A stretch of 64,000 bases of DNA, from contig NZ_CP025227.1 of assembly GCF_004010955.1 (NCBI RefSeq), positions 1,736,001 to 1,800,000 on the forward strand. The letters run 5' to 3'. The notes under the pieces are model-generated. The model did no database searches and was not told the origin of the DNA. It was given only the letters and a program-made list of their open reading frames with translations. This document shows positions 3,000 to 56,791 of the stretch, piece after piece. The DNA is from Actinomyces wuliandei. Its GTDB lineage: Bacteria; Actinomycetota; Actinomycetes; Actinomycetales; Actinomycetaceae. Position numbers and translations under genes: made by a program. Position 1 is the first letter of the stretch, and the number at the start of each line of letters is the position of its first letter.

Positions 3000-3787
3000 A
3001 GTCACGGACGACCTCGGGAACAGGAAAGGCCCCCGTTCCCTGTCACGCAGGTCGGAGGCCTCTACGAGAGCACGGTAGTCCGGACGGCCAAGGCCACCAG
3101 ACGACCACGAAGGGTACACCCTTGCACGAACCCGGTCCCCGACAGGGACCAAGGTGGGATCCTCTCCACTTGCGCGCCGGGGCTGGCCCCGGTCGGTCAG
3201 GCTGACATCGTAGCAGGAACAGCCACCGCCGCCAAGACGGCGAGGAGGCTCGTCTCGGGTGTCCGCGATAGGGGCTGGGTACCTCGCCGTACCTCACCTG
3301 GGACAGCCCGCAAAGGTCGTGGACCTCGGTGGGTACGGGGGTGCGGGCCGCCTGGCGGGGACCAGGGCAGGCAGGGACAAGGCCGGTTACAAGACGAGCT
3401 GCACATCTTCAACGGACCACCCGTAGCCCTCTGGAGGAGGAAGATGCCGGGCTGTCTGCGGCCGCCCGGAAATAGGACCGTCGCCGCACAGCCCGCGCAC
3501 CAGCACCGGCTCCATGATGTGCACCAGACGCCTTAGCGCACATCATGGAGGGGTGCAGCGAAGGCGCTAGGAGAGGCTGTTACTGCCCCACACACTGCTC
3601 CCCAACGCATCCCGCAGAAGCACGCGGGTCCCGGGGCCACTTTCACCCCCGGCAGGCGGGTCGGCCCTACCGCCCACAGCAACCGGGCGCCGAAAATGTG
3701 CAGCCCCGTCTCCCGCAGCGTCCCGTCCGACGTCCCCAGGGGCAACACAGCATCAAGAACGCGTCGGCCTGCGTCCGTCGTCCGCGC
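3000..3787. other. Long non-coding stretch upstream of infC
   Basis: About 790 bp without a convincing gene. It should hold the infC promoter and leader. A hairpin-forming GGGAAC/GTTCCC pair (3016-3021 with 3035-3040) sits just upstream of infC and could be part of a leader structure. A strong palindrome at 3510-3550 is listed separately. The 3' remnant of the decayed membrane gene ends at 3788. No tRNA, known riboswitch core or T-box is recognisable. Confidence 0.5.
3510..3550. repeat. 13-bp perfect inverted repeat
   Basis: CTCCATGATGTGC (3510-3522) is mirrored exactly by GCACATCATGGAG (3538-3550), with a 15-nt spacer. It lies about 240 bp beyond the end of the decayed membrane gene and about 510 bp before infC. 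It may be a terminator for the upstream transcript or a protein-binding site. There is no T-run on either side. Confidence 0.6.
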
Positions 3788-5049
3788 CTACCGTCGCAAG
3801 CCAGTGACCAGGCCCCACCACACCACCAGGGCGCTCGCTGCCGCCTGCGCCACCACGACCAGGTACGACGGCTGCCAGCCACTAGCAAGCAGGGCGGTCG
3901 GCAGGCCGACGACCACGACGGCGTCCCCGCCAGCGACCACCGCCTGGACCGCCCCGGCAGGGCTGGCGCCATAGCAGGAGCAGGTCCGCCTGTACCACGC
4001 ACGGCACGGGGCACAGCCTTGCAGGCAGCCGCCTGCCCCACCAGGCCGCCAGGGCCAGTCGGCTGGAGCGGCGCGGGGGCGCCACCGGGGGGCTCAGAAT
4101 CCGGCCCAGCGCCCTGGTGTCCAGGGACAGCAGCGAGACCTGGGCTCCAAGAGAGCGCGCCACCACGGCCAGGAGATCGGCGTCACGCAGGTCAGCGAGC
4201 CGGGGGCGCACCAGCGCCCTCCAGGTGGTCCAGGCCGCACCGGCTGCCACGGCCGCCACGCCGCCAGGGCCTAGCACACCAGCCGCTCCTCCCGGGAAGG
4301 GACGGAGCCCCCGGGGACACTGTAGGTGGTGTGTCCTCAGAAGCCGCTCCTCCCGGGAAGGGACGGAGCAGCCCGGTCGCCAGCGCCCCGGCCGCCGCAG
4401 CCACCAGTACCGCCCGTACCGGCCACGCCGGAGCAGCACGGCACTGGGCTAGTAACAGGCCGGTCATGACGGCCCAGCCTATGGCCGCAGCAAGCACGGC
4501 CCAGGCCAGCGCCGCCACCCAGCCGGAGCCGACGAGCACCGCGAGGACCAGCCCGCACACCGCTGCAAACCCTGCCGCACCGGCCATCTCGGCACGCGCC
4601 ACAGGAAGCAGGAGACCGTCACGACACCCTGGAAGACGAAGCCACCACACGGCCTCCCAGGGACGCAGGAACAGCGGGCCGACGCGGCTGAGGGGTCCGA
4701 CGGCGAGACCAGGCAGTGCCAGGAGGAAGGCAGCAACGACCCACTCCGGGTCCGGCCCGAGCCACAGCGGCACAGTCCCGACCGTCGCGACAGCGCTCCT
4801 GCGCGTCGGGACGGTCGGGGAGGCGAGGTGGGGCAGCAGGAGCACCGCCAGGACCGCGAGGTACAGCAGGCCCGAGTAGATCCTGCCCACCAGGGCGGGC
4901 CAGGACGTGCGGGCACGCCTGGACGACTGAGTCCGGTACCTGGTCCACCGGCGCACCTGCGCCAGGTCGGGGGGTCGGGAGGCCGGGCCACTAGAGGAGC
5001 CGCCCGTGGGACTGCCGACTAGGCCGCTGCCTGCCGGCCCGGTCACCAC
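3788..5049 (-). pseudogene. Decayed multi-TM membrane protein (ABC-permease partner, DUF6297-like)
   Basis: The gene starts at a GTG at 5049 overlapping the ABC-ATPase stop and encodes a soluble N-terminus then hydrophobic helices (IYSGLLYLAVLAVLLLPHLA; VLAVLVGSGWVAALAWAVL). Near codon 230 the frame breaks at a 61-bp insertion; the next part continues one frame away (AGVLGPGGVAAVAAGAAW, then LLSLDTRALGRIL). A second break lies near 3960: QADLLLLWR in one frame is followed in another by AGAVQAVVAGGDAVVVVGLP and a C-terminal helix ending LVTGLRR at a TAG (3788-3790). The distance between these parts seems too short for the family, suggesting an internal deletion. The pairing with an ATPase and the LDTRALGR block fit the actinobacterial DUF6297 membrane family, recalled rather than searched. 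As it stands no full protein can be made. Confidence 0.7.
4281..4369. repeat. 28-bp direct repeats flanking a 33-bp insert (candidate ectopic CRISPR spacer integration)
   Basis: The 28-bp sequence at 4281-4308 recurs without mismatch at 4342-4369; its core is CTCCTCCCGGGAAGGGACGG. Between them is 33 bp of unique DNA (4309-4341), which itself holds a small GGACAC/GTGTCC hairpin. The bases just outside the repeats differ, so the boundaries are exact. Each repeat folds as GCTCC-TCCC paired with GGGAcGGAGC around a GGGAA loop. The unit of 28+33=61 bp lies inside a coding region, and deleting 61 bp restores the frame, so this is an insertion with a 28-bp target duplication. Ordinary transposons make shorter duplications; a type I-E Cas1-Cas2 integration makes exactly this. 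Confidence 0.75.
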
Positions 5050-5834
5050 AGACCCTCCCTCATGGCGCTGACCCCCTCCTCCACGCTGAGCTCGCGCGTG
5101 TGCGCCCCGACAAGAAGCACCTGGGTAGCAGCAGCCGCCACAAGGGCAGGGTCGTGGGAGGCCAGCAGCACCGCCCTGCCCTCCCGGGCCTCCTGAGCCA
5201 AGCGCTGCGCCAGGAGGCGGCGCATGACGTGGTCCAGGCGCTGCTCAGGCTCGTCCAGGACAAGGAGACGACGGGGACGCGCCAGGGCCGAGGCCAGGGC
5301 CAGGCGTCGTCGCTGTCCCGAGGACAGCCGCTGGGGCAGGCTGTCCGCCTGCCCCAGCAGGTCAAGGTCCGTCAGCAGGGAGGTCACCACCGTGTCCGCG
5401 TCGAGGACCCCGTGCCCGGAGCAGACCAGCCCCAGGTGCTCAGCGACAGTCAACGAGGGGAAGAAGGAGTCCTCACCCAGGTCCCAGGCCACGGCTGCCC
5501 GCTGGGCTGCGGACTGCGGGTCCGGGGTCCCTCCCAGCAGCCGCACCTCCCCCTGCACAGGTGGCAGCAGGCCGCAGCAGGTACGCACCAGCGTAGACTT
5601 CCCCGCGCCGTTGACGCCCACGAGGGCGAGGACCTGGCCGGGCCTGAGGGTCAGGGACGCCGGGGCGCACACCGGGACGCCCCCATAGCCGACGCTGAGG
5701 TCACGGGCACTCACCAGGACCTGGTTGGCGACCCTGGCGGGCTCCCGTGGGCCAGCCTCGGTGCAGACAGGGTGCCAGGGCCCGTCCCCGTGCACGGCGC
5801 CTCCCCCGCCCGCAGGTCCGCGGCACCAGATCAT
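5043..5834 (-). CDS. ABC transporter ATP-binding protein
   Basis: 263 residues from the ATG at 5834. Walker A is GVNGAGKST (about residue 75), the signature is LSSGQRRRLALASALA, Walker B is LLVLDEPEQRL and the switch histidine is in LLASHDPALV. The signature replaces the usual LSGGQ by LSSGQ, which is tolerated in the superfamily. The frame stays open upstream into His/Gly repeats (GGHAGGHAGG) that look non-coding, so 5834 is preferred. It follows the sseB-like gene by 37 bp and overlaps the GTG of the broken membrane gene, its likely transport partner. With that partner broken, the exporter may be non-functional. Substrate unknown. Confidence 0.85.
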   Translation of the reverse strand: MIWCRGPAGGGGAVHGDGPWHPVCTEAGPREPARVANQVLVSARDLSVGYGGVPVCAPASLTLRPGQVLALVGVNGAGKSTLVRTCCGLLPPVQGEVRLLGGTPDPQSAAQRAAVAWDLGEDSFFPSLTVAEHLGLVCSGHGVLDADTVVTSLLTDLDLLGQADSLPQRLSSGQRRRLALASALARPRRLLVLDEPEQRLDHVMRRLLAQRLAQEAREGRAVLLASHDPALVAAAATQVLLVGAHTRELSVEEGVSAMREGLW

Positions 5835-5871
5835 GACCGCACCGCCAGCATGACCACCAGCATGACCTCCG

Positions 5872-6804
5872 TCATGCTGGAAGGGGGTACAGCTCGACAG
5901 TGTCGACAAGGTGCCCCCACTCAGGGCTGCCCAGGCATTGCTGGCAGTCCCTGACCACCCTCTTGACGCTCTCCTCGACGCCGCCCCTGGCACCACCCCT
6001 GCTGCTGTCCCTGGCTTCTCCTGCCCCGCCGCGGTGAACGCCACCAGCCTCGACGCTCACCAGGACCCGCAGCTCAGCACTCGCGCCCGGCTCGAAGAAG
6101 ACGCTGCGGACTCCCTTGACAGGCTCCAGCCGGGCACGTATCTGGGCCTGCACCGCCTCGTTGCGCCAGGCGGGCACCCACTCGCGGCCCTCGGAGATCG
6201 CGAGTACCGCTGGGCGGGGAAGACACAGGTCACGGGTCCCCGGGTCCAGCACCCACAGCATGTCGGCCACGGCCGCCGCCACCTGCGCCGCCTGGCGGGC
6301 AGCCACGGGAACTGGTCGCACGTCTTGCACGTCACTGCGCCAGGCACGCATCGCCCCGACAGAGGTGAACACCGGCAGCGCCCGGCGGCCGTCAGGTGCG
6401 TGTACCGCCAGGATGGTCGCGTCCTGGCAGGGGTCCGCCGCGTGGGCCTGCGCGCCGGGCACACCCTGGTGCCGACCGAGCGGGTGAGCGGGCGACTCGG
6501 TAGTGTCCCGGACGCCCGGGCCGCGCCCAGGGTCACCGGGGCGACCGTGGGCGCGGACCGGGACCAGGAGGCGGCTGCCAGCCAGTGCCGCCCACACGGT
6601 GTCCAGGTACCTGTGCCAGGGCAGGCCCGGTACCGCCAAGGCGGCGGCCACGTCGGGGTCCACGGAGCCGTCGTCGTCGGGGAACAGGGCCGGGGCGGCC
6701 AGGAGACGCTCCATCTTGGCGCGGGCTCCCGCCGCCAGCGCGAGATCCAGCCTGCGATGGGGCCCGGGCGCATACGACGAGGCGGAGGTACTCACAGGAA
6801 GCAC
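5872..6804 (-). CDS. SseB-family protein
   Basis: 310 residues from a GTG at 6804 (a second GTG at 6795 is equally possible). The central part, from about residue 130 (ATILAVHAPDGRRALPVFTS, then AMRAWRSDVQDVRPVPV and AAAVADMLWVLDPG), matches the SseB N-terminal domain, a small alpha/beta module of unknown biochemical role. The segment around residues 85-115 is low-complexity. An SseB protein between the his genes and infC is, as I recall, a conserved neighbourhood in actinobacteria. It heads the operon with the ABC ATPase. Confidence 0.75.
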   Translation of the reverse strand: MLPVSTSASSYAPGPHRRLDLALAAGARAKMERLLAAPALFPDDDGSVDPDVAAALAVPGLPWHRYLDTVWAALAGSRLLVPVRAHGRPGDPGRGPGVRDTTESPAHPLGRHQGVPGAQAHAADPCQDATILAVHAPDGRRALPVFTSVGAMRAWRSDVQDVRPVPVAARQAAQVAAAVADMLWVLDPGTRDLCLPRPAVLAISEGREWVPAWRNEAVQAQIRARLEPVKGVRSVFFEPGASAELRVLVSVEAGGVHRGGAGEARDSSRGGARGGVEESVKRVVRDCQQCLGSPEWGHLVDTVELYPLPA

Positions 6805-21589: not shown

Positions 21590-21916
21590 GTGACAGCACA
21601 GCCCTCATCACAGCCTTCACCACGGCCCTCACCGTCCCGCCCGCCTTCTCAGCCCCTGCTCCGGGTCCCGGTACAGGGTCGTATCCGCCTGGGGCAGTTC
21701 CTCAAGCTCGCCGACCTGGTCCGGGACGGGGCGCAGGCACGCGCGGCGGTCCAGGCGGGCGACGTCACCGTCAACGCCGCCACGGAGACGCGTCGCGGCC
21801 ACCACCTCGACGACGGCGACGTCGTGGTGGTCGACCTGCCCTCCGGCCCGGTAGCAGCCGTGGTGGAGGTCGTAGAGGTCAGCGACGCAGGCACCCCGGC
21901 CCCAACAGGGCCTTGA
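21590..21916 (+). CDS. Small S4-domain RNA-binding protein
   Basis: 108 residues from a GTG at 21590. After a Pro/Ser/Gln-rich lead of about 25 residues comes an S4 fold: RIRLGQFLKLADLVRDGAQA, RAAVQAGDVTVNAATETRRG and HHLDDGDVVVVDLP. This matches YbcJ/RluB-like stand-alone S4 proteins that bind structured RNA, probably rRNA or stalled ribosomes. Its last 38 bp overlap the end of dnaE on the other strand. Confidence 0.8.
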   Translation: MTAQPSSQPSPRPSPSRPPSQPLLRVPVQGRIRLGQFLKLADLVRDGAQARAAVQAGDVTVNAATETRRGHHLDDGDVVVVDLPSGPVAAVVEVVEVSDAGTPAPTGP

Positions 21917-24900
21917 TGTCGGAGTAGAAGGCCGGCGAGGCCTCCACCCGCAGGGAGGCGTCCAGCTGGGTGCGGACCTCCCGACCCGGGCTGGTCAAGG
22001 TCAGGCGCACGGTGGACATCCCCGGGTGACGCACCAGGACGTCCTTGAACTGCTCCACCAGGGGACCCGTGCACCGGTTGGTCGGCAGCGTGATGAGGAC
22101 GGCCTCGTGGGTGGCGCTGGAGACGTCGGGGATCGTCATCTCCTGGGCGTACAGCGCGGTCTGGCCGTCCCGGCGGTTGAGGCGTCCGCGCACCGTCACC
22201 ACAGTGTCCGGGGCCAGCATGGTGGAGACCGTCTGGTAGGTCTGGGGGAAGAACAGCACCTCCACGCTGCCCGCCAGGTCCTCCACCTGGGCGATCGCCC
22301 ACAGGTTGCCCTGCTTGGTGGTCTTGCGTGTCAGGGAGGTGATGAGCCCGGCGACGGTGACCACCGCGCCGTCAGGCAGGGCGTCGTCCTCGTGGAGCTC
22401 GGCGATCTCCCGGTCGGCCAGGCGGCCCAGCAGGCCCTCCAGGCCCATGAGCGGGTGGTCGGAGACGTAGAGGCCCAGCATCTCACGCTCGTAGGCCAGC
22501 TTGTCCTTCTTGTCCCACTCCGGCAGGCTGGGGACCTCCGAGGAGAAGACCGGTCCTGTCCCGAAGGCGGCTGCTGCAGATGCCGAGGAGGCCTCTGCGC
22601 CCGGGCCGCCGTCAGCACCGTCCGGGCTGTCAAGGAGCGAGGCGAACAGGTCGAACTGGCCGGCGGCCTCGTTGCGCTTGACCCCGATGACCTCGTCGAC
22701 AAGGTCCTCGTGGCAGGCCTGCAGGGAGCGACGCGTACGCCCCAGGGAGTCGAAGGCCCCCGCCTTGATGAGGGAGTCGATGGTGCGCTTGTTGCACACC
22801 ACGGCAGGCACCTTGTCCAGGAAGTCCTCGAAGCTGGTGAACTCGCCCTTGTCCCTGCGCGCCGCCACGATTGCCTCCACCACGTTGAGGCCCACGTTGC
22901 GCACTGCGGCCAGGCCGAAGCGCACGTCGTCCCCGTCAGCGGTGAACTGGGCGCGGGAGGCGTTGACGTCGGGGGGGAGCACTGTGATCCCCATGTGGCG
23001 GCACTCCCCCAGGTAGACGCCGAGCTTGTCCTTGTTGTCCTTCTGGGAGGTCAGCAGGGCGGCCATGTACTCGGTAGGATAGTGCGCCTTGAGGTAGGCC
23101 GTCCAGTAGGACACCACGCCGTAGGCGGCGGAGTGGGCCTTGTTGAAGGCGTACTTGGCGAAGGGCACCACCACGTCCCACAGCGCCTTGACAGCCTCCT
23201 TGGAGAAGCCGCGCTCCACCATGCCCGCCTCGAAGTCGACGAACATCGTCTCCAGGATGTCCATCTTCTTCTTGCCCATGGCCTTGCGCAGCGCGTCGGC
23301 CTTGCCCATGGTGAAGCCCGCCAGGTCGGTGGCGATCTTCATCACCTGCTCCTGGTAGACAATGAGGCCGTAGGTGGTCCCCAGGATCGGCTCCAGGGCC
23401 TCCTTGAGCTCGGGGTGGATGGGGACGATCTCCTGCAGCCCGTTCTTGCGCAGGGCGTAGTTGGTGTGAGACTCCGCCCCCATGGGGCCGGGCCGGTAGA
23501 GGGCGCCCACCGCGGAGATGTCCTCGAAGTTGTCCGGCTTCATCAGCCGCAGGAGGGTGCGCATACCCCCGCCGTCGAGCTGGAAGACCCCCAGGGTCTC
23601 GCCTCGGGAGAGCATCTCGTAGGTGGCCCGGTCGTCGAGCTCGACGTGGTCGATGTCCAGGGGCTCCTTGCCGTTGGCGACGACGTTGTCCAGGGCGTCG
23701 GAGATGACGGTGAGGTTGCGCAGCCCCAGGAAGTCCATCTTGAGGAGGCCCAGGTGCTCACAGGTGGGGTAGTCGAACTGGGTGATGAAGGCCCCGTCCT
23801 GGAGGCGCTGCATCATAGGGATGATGTCGGTCAGCGTCTGGGAGGACATGATGACGGCGCAGGCGTGGACCCCCCACTGGCGGGTCATGCCCTCCAGCCC
23901 CTTGGCCAGCTCGACGATGCGCTGGGCGTCGGTGTCCTCGGCGTGGAGCCTGCGGAACTCCTCAGCCTCCCCGTAGCGCTCGTCCCCGGGGTCGAACATG
24001 CCCTTGATGGAGATGTCCTTGCCCATGATGGTGGGCGGCATCGCCTTGGTCAGGCGGTCCCCCACCGCGTATGGGTAGCCCATGACGCGCGAGGAGTCCT
24101 TGAGCGACTGCTTGGCCTTGATGACGCCGTAGGTGACCACCTGGCTGACCCGGTCGTCCCCGTACTTCTCCTTGACGTACTCGATGACCTCGTCGCGCCT
24201 GCGCTCGTCGAAGTCCACGTCGATGTCGGGCATGGAGATGCGCTCGGGGTTGAGGAAGCGCTCGAAGATCAGCCCGTGCTTGAGGGGGTTGAGCTCGGTG
24301 ATGCCCATGGCGTAGGCGACCATGGACCCGGCCCCCGACCCGCGCCCCGGGCCCACGCGGATACCCTGGGCCTTGGCCCAGTTGATGTAGTCGGCCACCA
24401 CCAGGAAGTAGCCGGGGAAGCCCATCTGGACGATGACGTCGATCTCGTACTCGGCCTGCTTGCGGCAGTCCTCGGGGACGTCGCCGTGGAAGCGGGCGTC
24501 CATGCCGCGCCAGCACTCCTTGACGAACCAGGACTCCATGGTCTCCCCCTCCGGCACGGGGAAGACCGGCATGAAGGAGGCCCCCTCGTCCACGGTGGTG
24601 AAGGAGACGTCGCACTGCTCAGCAACAAGGAGGGTGTTGTCGCAGGCCTGGGGCATCTCAGCAAAGAGCTCGCGCATCTCCCGGCCCGGGCGCAGGTAGT
24701 AGGTGTCTCCGTCGAACCTGAAGCGGTCCGGGTCGGTGAGCACCGACCCGGAGTTGATGCACAGCATGGCGTCCTGGATCTCGCGGTGCTCGGGGCGCAC
24801 GTAGTGGGAGTCGTTGGTGGCCAGGAGCGGGGCACCCAGCTCCTTGGCCAGGCGCAGCAGGTCCTTGGTGACGCGCCGCTCGATCTCCAGGCCGTGGTCC

Positions 24901-25541
24901 ATGAGCTCGACGTAGAAGTAGTCGCGCCCGAAGATGTCCTGGAGCTCGGCAGCACAGCGGCGGGCCTCCTCCCACTGCCCCAGGCGCAGGCGGGTCTGGA
25001 CCTCCCCGGAGGGGCAGCCGGTGGAGCCGATGAGTCCAGCGCAATAACGGCTCAGCAGCTCGCGGTCGATACGGGGCGCCTTGCCCCACTGCCCTTCCAG
25101 GGAGCCGTAGGAGTCCATGCGCATGAGGTTGCTCAGGCCCTCGTTGCTGCGGGCCAGCAGGGTCATGTGGGTGTAGGAGCCACGGGCGGAGACGTCGTCA
25201 CCACGCTGGGACTCCTCCCCCCAGAACACGCGGGTCCGGTCGAAGCGGGAGGTGCCCGGGGTCATGTAGGCCTCGACCCCGATGATGGGCTTGATACCGG
25301 CCTTCCTGGCGGCAGCGTAGAACTCGTAGGCGCCGAACATGTAGCCGTGGTCGGTGATGGCCAGGGCAGGCTGGCCCAGGCGCCTGGCCTCGGCCACGTA
25401 GTCCTGGATCTTGCCCGCGCCGTCGAGCATGGAGTAGTCGGTGTGGACGTGGAGGTGGACGAAGTCATCACCGGCTCCGGCCTTTGTGCTGCCCACGTCG
25501 GTCCCTGACCCGCTGCTGCTTGATCCCGTCGTGCTGCCCAT
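21879..25541 (-). CDS. dnaE: DNA polymerase III alpha subunit
   Basis: 1220 residues, full DnaE1 length. The PHP domain starts DFVHLHVHTDYSMLDGAGK with ITDHGYMFG. The polymerase active site has the aspartates of MPDIDVDFDERRR (about residue 437) and the third in KMDFLGLRNLTVISD (about 600). A helix-hairpin-helix and OB-fold follow (VTVAGLITSLTRKTTKQGN). It is the replicative DNA polymerase. The insert AGADGGPGAEASSASAAAAF-like linker near residue 970 is low-complexity. Its 3' end overlaps the S4 gene. Confidence 0.98.
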   Translation of the reverse strand: MGSTTGSSSSGSGTDVGSTKAGAGDDFVHLHVHTDYSMLDGAGKIQDYVAEARRLGQPALAITDHGYMFGAYEFYAAARKAGIKPIIGVEAYMTPGTSRFDRTRVFWGEESQRGDDVSARGSYTHMTLLARSNEGLSNLMRMDSYGSLEGQWGKAPRIDRELLSRYCAGLIGSTGCPSGEVQTRLRLGQWEEARRCAAELQDIFGRDYFYVELMDHGLEIERRVTKDLLRLAKELGAPLLATNDSHYVRPEHREIQDAMLCINSGSVLTDPDRFRFDGDTYYLRPGREMRELFAEMPQACDNTLLVAEQCDVSFTTVDEGASFMPVFPVPEGETMESWFVKECWRGMDARFHGDVPEDCRKQAEYEIDVIVQMGFPGYFLVVADYINWAKAQGIRVGPGRGSGAGSMVAYAMGITELNPLKHGLIFERFLNPERISMPDIDVDFDERRRDEVIEYVKEKYGDDRVSQVVTYGVIKAKQSLKDSSRVMGYPYAVGDRLTKAMPPTIMGKDISIKGMFDPGDERYGEAEEFRRLHAEDTDAQRIVELAKGLEGMTRQWGVHACAVIMSSQTLTDIIPMMQRLQDGAFITQFDYPTCEHLGLLKMDFLGLRNLTVISDALDNVVANGKEPLDIDHVELDDRATYEMLSRGETLGVFQLDGGGMRTLLRLMKPDNFEDISAVGALYRPGPMGAESHTNYALRKNGLQEIVPIHPELKEALEPILGTTYGLIVYQEQVMKIATDLAGFTMGKADALRKAMGKKKMDILETMFVDFEAGMVERGFSKEAVKALWDVVVPFAKYAFNKAHSAAYGVVSYWTAYLKAHYPTEYMAALLTSQKDNKDKLGVYLGECRHMGITVLPPDVNASRAQFTADGDDVRFGLAAVRNVGLNVVEAIVAARRDKGEFTSFEDFLDKVPAVVCNKRTIDSLIKAGAFDSLGRTRRSLQACHEDLVDEVIGVKRNEAAGQFDLFASLLDSPDGADGGPGAEASSASAAAAFGTGPVFSSEVPSLPEWDKKDKLAYEREMLGLYVSDHPLMGLEGLLGRLADREIAELHEDDALPDGAVVTVAGLITSLTRKTTKQGNLWAIAQVEDLAGSVEVLFFPQTYQTVSTMLAPDTVVTVRGRLNRRDGQTALYAQEMTIPDVSSATHEAVLITLPTNRCTGPLVEQFKDVLVRHPGMSTVRLTLTSPGREVRTQLDASLRVEASPAFYSDIKALLGPGCLRR

Positions 25542-25593: not shown

Positions 25594-25684
25594 GTCATCA
25601 CCCCACCCGCCAGCGGCCCCTCCTTGACTGGGCCGGTGCCCTGGCTGGGTGGGGGTCATCACCCCGCCCGCCAGCGGCCCCTCC
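25594..25684. repeat. 30-bp direct repeat pair with 61-bp period upstream of dnaE
   Basis: A 30-bp sequence at 25594-25623 recurs at 25655-25684 with one mismatch (A/G at position 12). It begins GTCATCACCCC and ends CGCCAGCGGCCCCTCC. The 31-bp sequence between is unique. The period of 61 bp equals that of the 4281-4369 pair although the sequences are unrelated. The CCGC...GCGG core can form a short stem, and ATCACCCC resembles the end of some type I-E CRISPR repeats. Located between dnaE and the CPBP remnant, non-coding. Confidence 0.6.
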
Positions 25685-56704: not shown

Positions 56705-56791
56705 CTGTCCGCCTCCCGCGACAGGAGACGAGGTGAGCAGGGACTCTGTAGTCAAACTGCCGCTGTCCGCCTCCCGCGACGGGACGCGAGG
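56705..56791. repeat. 29-bp imperfect direct repeats upstream of the acyl-CoA ligases
   Basis: Copies at 56705-56733 and 56763-56791 match at 26 of 29 positions; both start CTGTCCGCCTCCCGCGAC. The period is 58 bp. They lie in the 304-bp gap before the first ligase, so they could be paired operator sites or a small interspersed repeat. No other gene or RNA is seen in this gap. Confidence 0.55.

Follow-up and report, generated by a model that had tools for sequence, protein, structure and literature searches.

Non-canonical, or off-target, spacer integration by type I-E Cas1-Cas2 was reportedly described by Nivala et al. 2018, mainly upon overexpression of Cas1-Cas2 in E. coli, and that work is said to include a few putative natural cases from Yersinia pestis and Sulfolobus islandicus. 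The off-target integration of Nivala et al. 2018 is cited in passages of three papers (PMC11788318, PMC9456107, PMC11394691), one of which states in such a passage that the phenomenon is known mainly from overexpression (PMC11788318). Ectopic spacer acquisition also occurs inside the type II-A arrays of Streptococcus thermophilus, according to an excerpt of PMC7999890.

The locus described here lies in a window of 64,000 nucleotides (the whole stretch of DNA that was analysed) from an Actinomyces genome. Like the events of Nivala et al. 2018, it consists of spacer-sized DNA outside of arrays, flanked by a target duplication of repeat length, in a type I-E setting. Unlike those events, which stem mainly from overexpression in E. 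coli, it is natural, it occurs in Actinomyces, and it is recurrent in one genome. A duplication of 28 bp around an insert of 33 bp is likewise what canonical type I-E adaptation yields at the leader end of an array, but here the target is ordinary chromosomal DNA that neither belongs to an array nor resembles a leader. With the S. thermophilus acquisitions, as excerpted in PMC7999890, the locus shares integration away from the usual leader-end position; it differs from them in lying elsewhere in the chromosome, rather than within a type II-A array.

Judged from sequence, the structure at 4281-4369 is very probably a natural off-target integration, carried out by the type I-E Cas1-Cas2 of the same genome and of a kind that recurs in some lineages. 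The kind of event is already known, and what is new is its recurrence in wild genomes together with one insert whose self origin can be traced. The literature matches listed include no account of such scars recurring naturally in Actinomyces, which is weak evidence of absence as most subscription journals lie outside the coverage.

The duplication, its host gene and the empty site

The exact 28-bp repeat, its sharp bounds and its 33-bp middle were confirmed at the coordinates originally claimed (Table 1), with zero mismatches between the copies and 33 unrelated bp separating them. The 28-mer is confined to these two places in its own 3.11-Mb genome, and the insert occurs once, at its own locus, among 49 genomes of the genus and 213 of the family (≤3 mismatches in both searches). 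A single occurrence in 213 family genomes is not what membership of an interspersed repeat family would give. From ~200 bp upstream to 300 bp downstream, no third copy of the 28-mer is present, the best match being 15/28. Rfam models gave no match over 3000-6500 at an E value of 0.1, and plasmid records gave none against 3501-5100. Within the insert, GGACAC and GTGTCC form an inverted repeat that is not terminal, and the two ends of the insert show no inverted-repeat relationship.

Table 1. Features of the two duplications in the window and of the genes around the first.
Feature	Position	Strand	Remarks
Target-site duplication copy 1, 28 bp	4281..4308	.	Exact repeat; single copy in G018
Insert, 33 bp, spacer-sized	4309..4341	.	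Length equals that of native spacers; one place in 49 genus genomes
Target-site duplication copy 2, 28 bp	4342..4369	.	Exact repeat
Open frame with downstream part of interrupted gene	3882..4439	-	~405 bp missing relative to G018
Upstream part, interrupted membrane-protein-like gene	4192..5049	-	DUF6297 weak, 28.8 bits (curated cut-off 29.8); orthologue open in G018
ABC transporter ATPase gene, adjoins interrupted gene	5043..6044	-	PF00005, 7.9e-27
Second event, duplication copy 1, 30 bp, one mismatch	25594..25623	.	Single copy in G018, left side aligns poorly
Second event, middle, 31 bp between 30-bp copies (33 bp in 28-bp register)	25624..25654	.	
Second event, duplication copy 2	25655..25684	.	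Window scan at spacing 61

The relative G018 is by far the best match to the locus among 59 relatives searched, and the one aligned at the site. It is ~80 per cent identical to the region and both flanks align; the 28-mer is present once, with substitutions, and the gaps there add up to 61 bp. Such an empty site agrees with the original reading of the locus as an insertion of 33 bp with duplication of a 28-bp target, and speaks against both copies being shared by all relatives. The corresponding gene is open throughout in G018 and reads through as one protein, whereas the frame in the window shifts at the insertion, as expected from the earlier claim that removal of 61 bp would rejoin two shifted frames. 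NCBIfam gave no match for the interrupted gene.

The further suggestion that the insertion inactivated the gene is not supported. The window gene is also ~405 bp shorter than its G018 counterpart, this second lesion lying further downstream of the insertion, and loss of function cannot be pinned on the insertion. Either lesion may have come first, and the insertion is therefore not established as the inactivating one.

Resident type I-E loci and the spacing of isolated duplications

The prediction had ascribed the event to type I-E Cas1-Cas2, and the genome does encode two loci of this type, designated L027 (locus 1) and L028 (locus 2). Each comprises cas3, cas8e, cas11, cas7, cas5, cas6 and cas1 as well as a Cas2 of family PF09707, and matches to Cas1 or I-E Cas2 occur at these two places only. 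Repeats of 28 bp recur with a period of 61 bp in both associated arrays, 39 times in the first and at least 126 times in the second, which runs to the end of the stretch read. Spacers of 33 nt make up 36 of 38 in array 1 and 122 of 125 in array 2 (together 158 of 163). The geometry of the duplication is thus the native one, with 28 bp duplicated as in a repeat and 33 bp inserted as in a spacer. Both leaders end in CAGGTCA(G/A)GAAGT; the repeats of the two loci differ, while the leader ends are nearly identical within the one genome.

Isolated duplications were counted by spacing in a scan for 28-nt direct repeats with ≤4 mismatches at every spacing from 40 to 110. A pair was kept if no further such match lay within 250 bp and the matching stretch was <45 nt. 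The I-E sample comprised seven segments (2.064 Mb) of six same-genus genomes with I-E Cas2, namely the window's own genome, G018, G021, G070, G032 and G009, and the comparison sample comprised 0.8 Mb of G027 and G031, which show no Cas1 match. In the I-E sample, 29 of 82 raw pairs were kept. Spacing 61 accounts for 11 of these, with one more at 60 and two at 62; the remaining 15 are spread over the other 68 spacings, where no single spacing held more than two. The Cas1-free sample yielded seven pairs from 15 raw, none at 60-62 and all seven at other spacings. Seven rows at 60-62 were removed by the filter: tandem repeats (own genome and G027), a clustered match (G021), two rows from a relic array in G031, and two from a mini-array in the own genome.

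The excess at 61 is robust to the choice of parameters. Over eight combinations of length and mismatch, the I-E sample gave 7 to 12 pairs at 61, more than at any other spacing each time; the Cas1-free sample gave none there, and a single pair at 60 in one setting. Against the background rate, the Poisson probability of 11 pairs at 61 is ~1e-15, or 6e-14 without the finding itself, and nine pairs are left when both window events are set aside. The contrast between the I-E and Cas1-free samples is moderately significant (P 0.027). Given the excess at 61, chance does not account for an isolated 28-bp match at that spacing. The spacing is also not a multiple of three, unlike that of coding tandem repeats. 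A further direct repeat in the window, 29 nt long and 90 per cent identical (56705-56733 and 56763-56791), has a spacing of 58 and was excluded from the spacing-61 count.

The distribution among genomes is uneven. The own genome holds six pairs at 61 and one at 60 or 62 in 1.064 Mb, G021 four and two in 0.3 Mb, and G018 one and none in 0.4 Mb, while G070, G032 and G009 hold none at these spacings in 0.1 Mb each. In 29 named Actinomyces loci (639 kb, unsorted by I-E status), 3.6 pairs at 61 would be expected at the rate of the own genome and none was observed (P 0.027), and it seems on this account that scar load differs between lineages. The other 44 named loci (941 kb) contain none at 60-62. 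One Actinomyces pair at spacing 60 in this 73-locus survey (L242) looks like a tandem repeat and was set aside. Extrapolation of the own rate gives 18 to 20 events per genome. Agreement between copies ranges from 24 to 28 of 28 positions across events, the weakest being that at 2162703 of the own genome (24/28), and this spread suggests that the events differ in age.

Empty counterparts exist for more than one of these events. The second window event, located just upstream of a gene at 21879-25541 on the minus strand that we take to be dnaE, corresponds to a single copy in G018 (Table 1). The event at G000:1917470, also in the window's genome, is single copy both in G018 and in a paralogue of the same genome, with a small indel. 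Apart from these two and 4281, the sites of further events in this genome lie outside every alignment in the sample. The product of the gene at 21879-25541 has its best matches in named Actinomyces records, mostly at 82 to 90 per cent, which points to this genus. A protein of a record titled Vibrio cholerae strain 35D (L223) is 62 per cent identical to it, comparable to the Arthrobacter matches, and that record is probably mislabelled.

Inserts, targets and array-like relatives

The origin of one sibling insert can be traced. In the event at 1151321 of G018, the insert is identical at 33 of 33 positions to 2365492-2365524 of the same chromosome, and this sequence is present in 11 of 49 genus genomes (≤3 mismatches). 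The window's genome holds a counterpart (32/33) within a reading frame, which we take to encode a glycosyltransferase, and AA, as read in that genome, directly precedes this counterpart. In this the event resembles canonical type I-E adaptation. Matches outside the arrays were found for 5 of the 163 native spacers (≤5 mismatches, 3.06 Mb searched), and four of the five sources have AA in front of them in that register; the one left, a match with five mismatches, has GG. Native spacers of the window's genome match G018 DNA with 0 to 4 mismatches at L076 15010, L077 3650, L077 9528 and L089 1893, each of these places being preceded by AA; three of the G018 sources fall within ~15 kb and are perhaps part of a prophage.

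The insert at 4309-4341 has no such source in the 213 family genomes (≤3 mismatches) or in plasmids. The comparison with phages and plasmids that the original prediction proposed did not yield one either: phage matches were limited to 17 bases at chance level (E 4), and exact 20- to 24-mers of the insert found no source in viral and genome contigs. Likewise, phage sequences offered no source for the inserts of the second window event and G000:1917470, and the search of 49 genus genomes located the inserts of G000:1917470 and G021:1088918 at their own places only. Two G021 inserts have distant matches only (5/34 and 7/33 mismatches), with no AA in the register used. Native spacer 8 of array 1 resembles the 4309-4341 insert to a degree that is suggestive only, as a score of that level against the 163 spacers was reached by 2 of 300 shuffles, 2 of 300 window 33-mers, and 6 of 163 native spacers compared with one another. 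Two patterns for a shared source of the insert and spacer 8 gave no match in viral contigs.

Target choice was scored over 36 positions, made up of the final eight bases of the leader and the repeat, both from the own genome. The 4281 target matches the native leader-repeat at 14/36 against a random mean of 13.9, and hence shows no resemblance to it. The 14 sites at spacings 60-62 average 16.0/36 against 13.9 for random sites (P 5e-5, 20,000 resamples), an elevation carried by six G021 sites that score 16 to 21 against the leader and repeat of the window's genome, not those of G021. The G018 site scores 17/36, and the seven own sites, averaging 13.9, show no group resemblance.

Folding of the target had been noted in the prediction, and the stem that it described does form in the 28-mer, whose rank among random genomic 28-mers is within the top 0.5 per cent. 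That said, an equally good or better fold was obtained for 19 of 200 dinucleotide shuffles, and hairpin formation did not hold up as a general property of targets. As a general rule it was rejected, since the mean folding energy of 15 targets (the 14 events plus the mini-array) matches that of random sites (P 0.27). A position-specific palindrome test on the 14 targets gave no clear signal.

Two array-like structures also came to light. At G000:744938-745087 (L098 4938-5087), far from both cas loci, two 33-bp spacers are enclosed by three 28-bp copies, of which the third carries two mismatches. A copy agrees with native repeat 1 at 20/28 positions in reverse complement, and the repeat is absent from the other 48 genus genomes (≤3 mismatches). 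This mini-array may have grown from a scar by acquiring another spacer, or it may be an orphan array of some age. The second is a three-repeat relic array of I-E type at G031:1212029 (L181 12029), in a genome without a Cas1 match. Because this relic remains, the G031 lineage probably once had a I-E system.

Competing explanations and significance

Several routes other than adaptation can be envisaged for a structure of this kind. Replication slippage or template switching, by which 28 bp were copied and 33 bp inserted by chance, is known to yield short duplications around filler DNA, and pairs do occur at other spacings (15 over 68 spacings in the I-E sample and seven in the Cas1-free sample). 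However, such a process predicts no peak at the native CRISPR period, where 11 pairs lie at 61 against at most two per spacing outside 60-62, and we regard it as very unlikely. Insertion of a small transposon or MITE would bring the target duplication typical of transposons, and the internal GGACAC/GTGTCC repeat might be cited in its favour, although that repeat is not terminal. The insert is not multicopy, being found once in 213 genomes, and the inserts differ between events while length and spacing stay constant. One sibling insert, moreover, comes from within a chromosomal reading frame, its sequence occurring in 11 of 49 genus genomes, and we hold a transposon to be even less probable than slippage.

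Equally improbable is descent from a degraded or orphan CRISPR array with drifted repeats. The 61-bp unit would fit, and the three-copy mini-array with its native-like repeat demonstrates that orphan arrays exist in the genome. The 28-mer at 4281 is, however, gene sequence that is single copy in G018; it is unlike the native leader-repeat and has no third copy in the stretch examined (best 15/28). With one insert, no third copy nearby and a repeat unlike the native one, the prediction's term "neo-CRISPR" is not supported in the sense of a working array. Off-target integration is preferred because it accounts for the anatomy and the period as well as for the empty site and the sibling insert of self origin, whereas the rivals leave the period unexplained. 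The core of the original prediction, a natural off-target spacer integration, is thereby supported, with the excess at 61 and the self-derived G018 insert adding strong support.

Under off-target integration, type I-E Cas1-Cas2 would insert a 33-bp prespacer into a 28-bp chromosomal target outside of arrays. This would take place through a staggered double strand-transfer, as at the leader end of its arrays, and subsequent gap filling would duplicate the 28-bp target. The scar at 4281 would then be one of several in the genome, of different ages. We infer Cas1-Cas2 as the agent, the strand-transfer steps, and the passive nature of the scars.

On a broader view, we consider it reasonably likely that in some Actinomyces lineages I-E Cas1-Cas2 chronically mutates the chromosome that encodes it by insertion. 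It would leave ~20 recognizable 61-bp scars of varied ages per genome, made with self or foreign 33-bp pieces at ordinary sites, with an occasional scar acquiring a second spacer to become an orphan mini-array. If true, a scar that gains a second spacer would constitute a route to the birth of new arrays. A wild genome with scars of several ages, an empty site, a self-derived sibling insert and a mini-array would make the natural misfire rate measurable, and such scars could reveal which targets are preferred, whether adaptation mutates genes, and whether arrays are born from scars.
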